Notes under the pieces: generated by a model
Database searches by the model: none
What the model was told of the DNA's origin: nothing
What the model saw: the letters and a program-made list of their open reading frames with translations, nothing else
Made by a program: the position numbers and the translations under genes
Shown: positions 14,986 through 50,283 of the stretch, in pieces
Layout of the letters: the number at the start of each line of letters is the position of its first letter
How positions within the stretch are numbered: position 1 is the first letter of the stretch
Assembly (NCBI RefSeq): GCF_041821045.1
Contig: NZ_JBGUAW010000002.1
Span: 310,001-374,000, forward strand
Direction of reading: 5' to 3'
Length of the DNA stretch: 64,000 nucleotides
DNA from: Thiohalorhabdus sp. Cl-TMA
GTDB lineage: Bacteria; Pseudomonadota; Gammaproteobacteria; Thiohalorhabdales; Thiohalorhabdaceae

Positions 14986-15336
14986 CTACTGAACCGGGGA
15001 CCCCTCGGTTACCGCCTCCCATTCGGAGCGGGGGATCTCCTCCAGGCCGTACCCGGTCAGGTATTCCACGGCCGCGGCCCGAAGCCAATAGGCCAGGGTG
15101 AGTAGGTCCGCCTCGCGGAGCTGAGCCCGGGTAGCGTCCTCGTTGGGGGAGAGGTCGATAACGAGGTGATCCTCCTCGCTGCCGGTGTTATCGGCCAGGA
15201 CGATGGAAGCGTTGCCCTCGCCGTCCAGGGAGAACCACCAATCCTGCCCCCGGAGAGGTGCGCCGGATACGCGGTATTTCTCCTCCCCCGCCAGGGAGTC
15301 CGGATTGATGGAGAGCGGCACACGTTGCTGATTCAT
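14986..15336 (-). CDS. Hypothetical protein (116 aa)
   Basis: A soluble acidic protein. It has a beta-rich centre (WWFSLDGEGNASIVLADNTG) and a helical C-terminus (EADLLTLAYWLRAAAVEYL). No signal peptide or known motif. It lies upstream of the PAS kinase on the same strand with 48 bases between, so it may be co-transcribed with it. The start at 15336 is the first ATG. Confidence 0.6.
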   Translation of the reverse strand: MNQQRVPLSINPDSLAGEEKYRVSGAPLRGQDWWFSLDGEGNASIVLADNTGSEEDHLVIDLSPNEDATRAQLREADLLTLAYWLRAAAVEYLTGYGLEEIPRSEWEAVTEGSPVQ

Positions 15337-15465: not shown

Positions 15466-15495
15466 AAAAAAAGGCCCGGGCGCTATGCCCGGGCC
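15466..15495 (-). terminator. Minus-strand rho-independent terminator
   Basis: The stem GGCCCGGGC / GCCCGGGCC (15473-15495) with a 5-base loop is followed on the minus strand by seven T (15466-15472). It ends something transcribed leftward from above 15495, yet no gene is visible there. Confidence 0.85.
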
Positions 15496-15850
15496 GCCTC
15501 CCGCCGGGGCTGGGGACCGAAGAAACCCCGGCGCGGAGGGCACGGAGGGAGAAAAGGGGATGGGCGGTGCATCGCATTGCCCAATAGACGCAACAAGCGC
15601 TCCGTTCGGAGGGCTTTCCGCCCATCCGCTTTCGCCAGCAGGAAGACCCGTTTCCTAACCTTTTCTCGCCTCTTCAGAAATTGGACCGCTCTGGCCCGGA
15701 AACGTTTTCCCCGCTCGTCAAGTTTCGGCGAGGGGGCACGGTCCTTCCATCGGCAGTAGGACGATGCGCCGCCGTAACGGGCCTAAGGGGGCCGATCCGG
15801 GAGCCGCCGGTTCGAGGCGCACTCCGCCTCCCCGCGCCGCTGGGAGCACG
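15466..15850 (-). ncRNA. Possible structured non-coding RNA
   Basis: This stretch lies between two minus-strand terminators (15466-15495 and 15851-15880) and has no convincing reading frame. It therefore seems to be its own transcript. It contains a 10-bp long-range stem (15558-15567 pairs with 15618-15627) that encloses a CTCC-GAAC-GGAG hairpin (15600-15611, minus sense). It does not match any RNA class I know (checked by eye against SRP, 6S, tmRNA, c-di-GMP riboswitches). Confidence 0.28.
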
Positions 15851-15880
15851 AAAAAAAGACCGGTGGCGCGGCCACCGGTC
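15851..15880 (-). terminator. Terminator of the mucR-like gene
   Basis: A 10-bp stem GACCGGTGGC / GCCACCGGTC with loop GCG is followed on the minus strand by seven T. It lies 30 bases after the regulator's stop. Confidence 0.9.
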
Positions 15881-15909
15881 CGGCGAAAGCCGCAAGCTGG
15901 TGTTGCGAA

Positions 15910-16362
15910 TCAGGATTGGCCTTCACGCTGCTTGCGCCGGGCTTCGGCGAGCCGCTCGCCAAGGCCGCGCTCCTTGGCCACCTTGGCACGCTGTTCGGAA
16001 AGGTTCGGGGCCACCAGGGGATAGTCCCTGTCCAGGTCAAAGGCTTCCCTATATTGCTGCGGGGTCATGCCATGGGCGTTGTTGAGGTGCCGCTTGAGGG
16101 TCTTGAAAGATTTTCCGCAGACCAGGCAGGTCAGCGCGTCTTTGCCGATGGCCTTTTGCGGGGACATGATCGGTTCGCGCTTTTCCGAACCGCCTTCTTC
16201 GACCCCTTCGGCCTCTCCTTCAGGGGCGGGGATGGCGCCCTCGCCTTCCATCTTGACCAGGGTGCTATAAGATTCCTGCAGGAGCTGGATTACTTCCTGA
16301 GCGGATTCGGCATTGGCCGCGTAGTTGGCAGCGATCTGGGCAGCGAGCTCACGGGTTCCCAA
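15910..16362 (-). CDS. Ros/MucR-family zinc-finger transcription regulator
   Basis: The C-terminal half carries the Ros/MucR zinc finger: CLVCGKSFKTLKRHLNNAH, then MTPQQYREAFDL and DYPLVAPNLSEQRAKVAKE. MucR proteins bind AT-rich DNA and act as global regulators or gene silencers, and they form oligomers through the N-terminal helix. Start choice: AAGGAG (16370-16375) sits seven bases before TTG 16362, giving (M)GTRELAAQIAANYAAN, which fits family N-termini. An ATG at 16428 would add 22 residues with no good site. Length is then 150 residues, normal for MucR. An acidic linker (GEAEGVEEGGSE) separates the N-terminal helix from the finger. It is divergent from the tiny membrane protein gene. Confidence 0.88.
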   Translation of the reverse strand: MGTRELAAQIAANYAANAESAQEVIQLLQESYSTLVKMEGEGAIPAPEGEAEGVEEGGSEKREPIMSPQKAIGKDALTCLVCGKSFKTLKRHLNNAHGMTPQQYREAFDLDRDYPLVAPNLSEQRAKVAKERGLGERLAEARRKQREGQS

Positions 16363-16730
16363 AGAATATCTCCTTCCTGGTTGGTTCGGAGGGATCGGAG
16401 TATACATACGTAGAGTATTTTTTTCCAAAATAGTTTCTCCTTCATCAATGCCAAAGTACTCAAAGCATCATTTCAGAGTGTAGCTCTTCAAGTAAAGCGC
16501 GATCCCTTGGGGGATTCCCTGAACCTTCCAGGGCAGAGCATCACACAGGCCAAAGAGAATGTTTGCACCCCGGTTATGCCTCTCTCCAGAGAGCGGGCGG
16601 CTTGGCGCGGGCTTGAACCCGCAATAAATTTGTGGGTATATTCCCACACATGGAATATGGTTAAAGGGCGGCAGGCGCCGACGGTACCTGCGCCCGGAAA
16701 CCCAGCAATACGCAGCCGCAGGAGGTGCAA
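16363..16730. other. Divergent intergenic region with palindromes
   Basis: This gap between the mucR-like gene and the 36-aa gene holds an AT-rich part at about 16390-16500, a GCGGG-CTTGAA-CCCGC palindrome at about 16610-16625, and the TGTGGG operator-like palindrome. No RNA gene is supported. Confidence 0.4.
16631..16648. promoter_or_regulatory. Operator-like palindrome TGTGGG-N6-CCCACA
   Basis: Arms TGTGGG (16631-16636) and CCCACA (16643-16648) flank TATATT. It lies 82 bases before the 36-aa gene start, in the divergent promoter region. It is a good candidate binding site for a dimeric regulator; which one is unknown. Confidence 0.45.
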
Positions 16731-49806: not shown

Positions 49807-49883
<77 letters not shown>

Positions 49884-49936
49884 AATCCGAATACGGGCCT
49901 GCAACCCCATAGAATGCCGTATCCGGTACTTCTTTG

Positions 49937-50013
49937 GCGCCTGTAGCTCAACTGGATAGAGCAGCGGCCTTCTAAGCCGCAGGTTGTGGGTTCGATTCCC
50001 GCCGGGCGCGCCA
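49937..50013 (+). tRNA. tRNA-Arg (anticodon UCU)
   Basis: Acceptor GCGCCTG / CGGGCGC (one G-T pair), anticodon loop CTTCTAA (TCT), T-loop GTTCGATTC, encoded CCA. It lies 53 bases after tRNA-Pro. Confidence 0.96.
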
Positions 50014-50113
50014 TTCGGAAAGGCGCAATCCGTTTCGGGTATCGCGCCGTATGCTAGAATGCGGGTTCGGGGACGCAACGTAATCCCCGGCCGGCTTCCA
50101 AGCCGGATGCAGT

Positions 50114-50190
50114 GGTGAGCGTAGCTCAGTTGGTAGAGCCCCGGATTGTGGCTCCGGTGGTCGGGAGTTCGAATCTCCTCGCTCACCCCA
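50114..50190 (+). tRNA. tRNA-His (anticodon GUG)
   Basis: Includes the extra G-1 typical of tRNA-His (GGTGAGCG start pairing to CGCTCACC). Anticodon loop ATTGTGG (GTG), T-loop GTTCGAATC, encoded CCA. Confidence 0.96.
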
Positions 50191-50207
50191 TTTTTTAAGC
50201 AGTAGAT

Positions 50208-50283
<76 letters not shown>

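Follow-up and report, generated by a model that had tools for sequence, protein, structure and literature searches.

A putative structured small-RNA gene between a mucR-like gene and a 116-aa ORF in Thiohalorhabdus

The mucR/116-aa ORF locus

The window analysed here, a 64,000-nucleotide stretch of the Thiohalorhabdus sp. Cl-TMA genome, carries on its minus strand a gene for a ROS/MUCR regulator and, downstream of it, an ORF of 116 aa that belongs to no known protein family; the proposed RNA gene lies between the two (Table 1). The locus was compared with that of a same-genus sister species and of a third member of the genus, the Cl-TMA and sister genomes being 99% complete and the third 82%. 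The start of the regulator gene is approximate and was placed at a TTG that is conserved across the three genomes. The 116-aa ORF was found in three of 369 genomes of the class, all of them members of the genus Thiohalorhabdus, and in each it follows mucR. In Cl-TMA and the sister species the strand and the order of the three elements (mucR, RNA, 116-aa ORF) are the same. In the third genome the interval between mucR and the ORF holds other sequence instead of the RNA, and a covariance-model search of this 82% complete assembly gave no copy elsewhere. The place of the RNA is taken there by a 149-aa frame (L011, 2475-2924, minus strand) containing HCHAGISRS, a sequence that resembles the CX5R motif found in protein tyrosine phosphatases.

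Table 1. Features of the locus, in window coordinates
Feature	Position	Strand	Basis and remarks
ROS/MUCR regulator gene (PF05443), upstream neighbour	15910..16368	(-)	Pfam match; conserved in the sister species and the third genome
Terminator of mucR-like gene	15857..15881	(-)	terminator scan; conserved in the sister species
Candidate sigma-E/ECF promoter, GAAAAC-N16-GGTC (AAAC-N17-GTC)	15684..15709	(-)	exact match, once in the window
Proposed structured RNA gene, ~209 nt	15466..15674	(-)	conservation in the sister species (contig C7); 5′ end predicted, 3′ end at the end of the T-run
Covariance-model match	15540-15673		model built from the Cl-TMA and sister sequences
P1 outer, 4 bp	5′ arm GAGG 15669..15672, 3′ arm 15545-15548	(-)	fold, both genomes
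P1, 9 bp	5′ arm GAGAAAAGG 15659..15667, 3′ arm 15549-15557	(-)	fold, both genomes
P2 hairpin AGGAA/UUCCU, 7-nt loop ACGGGUC	15640..15656	(-)	within an invariant 24-nt run
P3, weak 3-bp hairpin GCU/AGC	15628..15639	(-)	both minimum-energy folds; absent from the centroid of the sister species
P4, 10-bp long-range stem	5′ arm GGAUGGGCGG 15618..15627, 3′ arm 15558-15567	(-)	one change, G-C to G-U in the sister species
P5 hairpin, GAAC loop	15595..15616	(-)	C-G replaced by U-G in one pair; variation in the loop and the internal mismatch
P6 hairpin UGCGUC/GAUGCA	15568..15592	(-)	one change, U-A to U-G
P7 hairpin CGCCGGGG/CCCCGGCG, preceding the terminator	15502..15533	(-)	two compensatory pairs in the sister species
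Intrinsic terminator of the RNA	15466..15495	(-)	terminator scan; stem conserved, loop varies in the sister species
116-aa ORF, downstream neighbour	14986..15336	(-)	no Pfam or NCBIfam match

A preliminary description of this DNA had pointed to a T7 terminator on the minus strand at 15466-15495, apparently belonging to no gene, and to a separate terminator (15851-15880) serving the mucR-like gene. The terminator scan recovered both, the first at 15495-15473 with 9 GC pairs, a 5-nt loop and a run of seven T, and the second at 15881-15857 with 11 pairs and a T-run; these are the longest among five terminator-like sites. Because five such sites per 3.5 kb do not exceed the number seen in shuffled sequence (3.4 +/- 1.8), the terminators alone are no proof of a gene. 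The RNA has an intrinsic terminator of its own, distinct from that of the upstream gene, as is expected of an autonomous structured small RNA.

Conservation and fold of the proposed RNA

In a DNA search the sister species matched the region as three blocks, comprising mucR with its terminator, the equivalent of 15466-15687, and the 116-aa ORF, while the DNA between the mucR terminator and about 15690 aligned poorly. Of the extent first suggested for the element, 15466-15850, the part from 15466 to about 15674 is therefore retained, and the poorly conserved mucR-proximal part (~15690-15850) is not. Cl-TMA and the sister species agree at 117 of the 130 alignment columns of the folded domain and differ at 13. 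Identity at third codon positions is 67% in mucR (150 codons) and 59% in the 116-aa ORF (116 codons), so that the RNA stretch is more constrained than the silent sites flanking it.

Minimum-energy folding of the two sequences, each on its own, gave the same shape: a domain of about 130 nt in which the closing stem P1 leads to a multiway junction of P2, P3 and P4, and P4 in turn encloses the hairpins P5 and P6 at a three-way junction, followed by P7 and the terminator. Two of these elements, the 10-bp stem 15558-15567/15618-15627 and the hairpin with the GAAC loop (15600-15611), had already been read from the sequence, and both are present in the minimum-energy fold. The 129-nt domain of Cl-TMA has a fold z-score of -4.5, none of 200 shuffles being as stable; the corresponding values for the sister species are -2.9 and 2 of 200, and the z-score for a 195-nt stretch is -3.2. 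The plus strand folds about equally well (z-scores of -5.0 and -4.1), as it will for any inverted repeat.

The differences between the two genomes follow the predicted structure. Changed columns make up 10 of 40 that are unpaired and 3 of 90 that are paired (Fisher p 0.0004), the reference structure being derived from the Cl-TMA fold, with four inner P6 pairs left out that occur in this fold only and of which one is broken in the sister species; when these pairs are counted too, the figures are 8 of 32 unpaired and 5 of 98 paired (p 0.003). All three changes at paired positions keep a G-U pair on the minus strand and break a pair on the plus strand, which, together with the terminator, fixes the strand of the RNA as minus. 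In a hand alignment, P7 of the sister species carries two compensatory pairs, C-G to U-A and G-C to C-G. A conserved secondary structure with pair-keeping changes is thus found, in two species only; with no more than two sequences the covariation is thin and lacks the power of an R-scape-type analysis.

The RNA is present once in the Cl-TMA genome. A covariance-model scan of 369 genomes of the class gave two clear matches, Cl-TMA and the sister species, and a scan of 398 genomes of the phylum, partly overlapping the former set, gave one, Cl-TMA itself; both scans used stricter filters, at which weak matches are lost. The weak matches that were recorded, G206 at 22.5 bits with many broken pairs and G507 at 22.4 bits, are expected by chance at an E-value of 0.1 per genome over so many genomes, and a second match in the sister species (15.3 bits, E 3.5) was taken as chance. 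A DNA search of 56 genomes including Cl-TMA matched the intergenic stretch only in Cl-TMA and the sister species; two short matches on contig C10 of the latter, 35 and 48 bases long, proved on inspection not to be the RNA. Searches of phage and plasmid DNA gave no match to the RNA stretch, and an exact 22-mer had none in genome_contigs. An 18-mer from the invariant P2 region occurs exactly in 18 stretches of genome_contigs and 2 of viral_contigs; these 20 are not homologues, since the best covariance-model score among them was 8.8 bits (E 9.8) and their flanks are unlike by eye. The RNA looks restricted to the genus, a judgment that speaks for the genomes searched, of which just three are close. 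The literature searches listed no paper on an RNA at this locus.

Because conservation in the sister species covers the RNA segment and stops upstream of it, and because the changes in its paired columns keep pairs, the locus most probably holds an autonomous gene for a structured small RNA, about 209 nt long and with a terminator of its own, a reading to which we assign a probability of about 0.8. Of the two suggestions made at the outset, a small RNA or a riboswitch-like leader relic, the alignment with the one sister genome supports the former, in that it supplies both a conserved segment and pair-keeping changes.

Candidate promoter, proposed mode of action and alternative explanations

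Upstream of the predicted 5′ end, AAAC-N17-GTC lies at the same distance from the first stem of the RNA in Cl-TMA and the sister species, an offset with a chance of 0.0008 and 0.002 per sequence under a Markov null, calculated post hoc and for two related sequences. Both genomes encode RpoE, above the curated cut-off, and upstream of rpoE both contain a conserved GGAAAC-N17-GTCTGA (L043 on C5 in the sister species, L044 on C8 in Cl-TMA) that is likely the autogenous rpoE promoter and could seed a regulon search. The candidate promoter of the RNA resembles this sequence imperfectly: its -10 element reads GTCCAA/GTCGAA against GTCTGA and its -35 also differs from GGAAAC, and it is better viewed as a lead than as a demonstration. 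Promoter matches allowing 2 mismatches were not enriched in the window (39 against 39.5 expected). A related ECF pattern gave one unrelated match in Cl-TMA (control counts, 4) and none in the sister species, missing the candidate site, and no sigma-70 promoter for the RNA was found by scanning. Control of the RNA by sigma-E is accordingly a tentative proposal, to which we give somewhat less than even odds.

Hfq (PF17209) was found in neither of the two 99% complete genomes, although RpoE and 6S RNA are present in both; the same search was positive in 5 of 14 controls, E. coli and four others. An Hfq-type mechanism is therefore unlikely, and so is the identification of this RNA as an Hfq-dependent trans-acting sRNA. 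A FinO/ProQ domain was detected in one of the three genus genomes, that of Cl-TMA (C1:390897-391181 and C9:110579-110728), and not in the sister species or the third genome; unless it was missed there, ProQ cannot be required in the sister species.

The best reading of these data is a stress-inducible, chaperone-independent regulatory RNA, whose regulator and mode of action we infer as follows. Transcription would begin near 15674 at the sigma-E-type promoter, so that the RNA would be made under envelope stress. Once folded into a stable particle, it would act in trans and independently of Hfq, with its invariant loop and junction sequences (the P2 loop ACGGGUC with UUCCU/GCUGGC, and the P6 loop) exposed to mRNAs, or else through the binding of a protein. 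Of the two, we slightly favor base pairing to mRNAs, with the invariant P2 loop and junction as the contact site. For the start regions of mucR and the 116-aa ORF, pairing was no better than with shuffled sequences, 253-473 of 500 being as good.

The other mode, an RNA that binds protein as a scaffold or sponge in the manner of 6S RNA or CsrB, falls within the autonomous-gene reading, so that the two probabilities overlap, and we consider it rather unlikely. A strong conserved fold with two junctions, conserved unpaired runs and the failure to find Hfq in the genome would all suit such a function. However, both genomes carry 6S RNA elsewhere, and the GGA motifs of the present RNA lie mostly in stems, unlike those of Csr sponges, which are located in loops.

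Turning from modes of action to explanations that dispense with an autonomous gene, an elaborate domain with several junctions and a terminator behind it could also represent a cis-acting 5′ leader of the 116-aa ORF, a riboswitch or attenuator with conditional termination at 15466-15495, and the shared strand and gene order in the two genomes agree with this. When the terminator was forbidden, however, the folds lost 22.9 and 23.8 kcal/mol and were otherwise unchanged, with no alternative pairing, indicating that there is no competing antiterminator. Furthermore, the spacer from the RNA to the start codon of the ORF is about 130 nt in Cl-TMA and about 265 nt in the sister species, a conserved CATAAT-like box past the terminator, noted by eye, could be the ORF's own promoter, and the RNA adjoins the ORF in two of the three genus genomes, no copy lying next to it in the third. 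A leader is thus improbable; the description of the locus as a leader relic is further at odds with a structure that is under selection.

Still less probable is a structured DNA element or mobile-element relic that is never transcribed: nested inverted repeats that fold on both strands would be explained, but not the strand-specific, G-U-keeping changes together with a minus-strand terminator, nor the single genome copy and the failure to match phage or plasmid DNA. A gene for a small protein, on one strand or the other, is the least credible explanation, since the long open frames that run through this GC-rich DNA on both strands are shifted between the species by single-base indels, which fall in unpaired columns, show 1-4 synonymous against 6-7 nonsynonymous codons and no synonymous excess in any frame of the longest gap-free block, and, among those scanned, have no Pfam match, in agreement with the initial view that no believable protein frame lies here.

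Comparison with known RNA families

The Rfam search that had been recommended as a check (Rfam 15) returned no family above its gathering cut-off at the RNA locus. In the window as a whole, four tRNAs alone passed the gathering threshold, and the relaxed threshold added sub-threshold matches only. Four tRNA genes, for Pro, Arg, His and Lys, are clustered at window positions 49807-50283. The sub-threshold matches on the strand of the RNA, to SorX (RF02784; 23.2 bits, gathering score 46.6) and anti-hemB (RF02837; 22.5 bits, gathering score 49.5), cover essentially the terminator region, and what these families have in common with the RNA is a GC-rich terminator stem. The RNA therefore represents a family that no Rfam model covers, traced from a single orphan terminator.

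Like 6S RNA (RF00013), the present RNA is structured, stands alone and has a length of about 200 nt. The sole 6S match in each of the two genomes lies at another place (on C7 in Cl-TMA), and the fold predicted here is branched, in contrast to the rod with a central bubble formed by 6S RNA. Its heavy structure and terminator hairpin also recall ProQ-associated structured sRNAs, of which RaiZ is an example, but the sister species carries the RNA with no detected protein of the FinO/ProQ domain.

Also among the closest known systems are the sigma-E-dependent sRNAs RybB and MicA of Enterobacteria, which resemble the present RNA in lying between genes, in ending with a terminator and in following a promoter of the sigma-E type, here a candidate one. 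The rybB and micA promoters are given with a -35 of GGAACTTTT and a -10 of GTCAAA, and the RNAs are described as Hfq-dependent and about 70-80 nt in length (PMC1804206). The present RNA differs in its length of about 209 nt, in its two-junction fold, in coming from genomes in which Hfq was not found, and in matching neither family in Rfam. That it stands for a new class, a large, branched, sigma-E-controlled RNA acting without Hfq or ProQ and filling the place of RybB and MicA in an Hfq-less lineage, seems to us doubtful. Overall, we regard it as a new family within an ordinary kind of small RNA; the gene itself is well supported, and the link to stress is interesting but unproven. If both the sigma-E link and the absence of Hfq hold true, the RNA would offer a testable case of how the RNA arm of the envelope stress response may be built in a bacterium that possesses RpoE and lacks Hfq.
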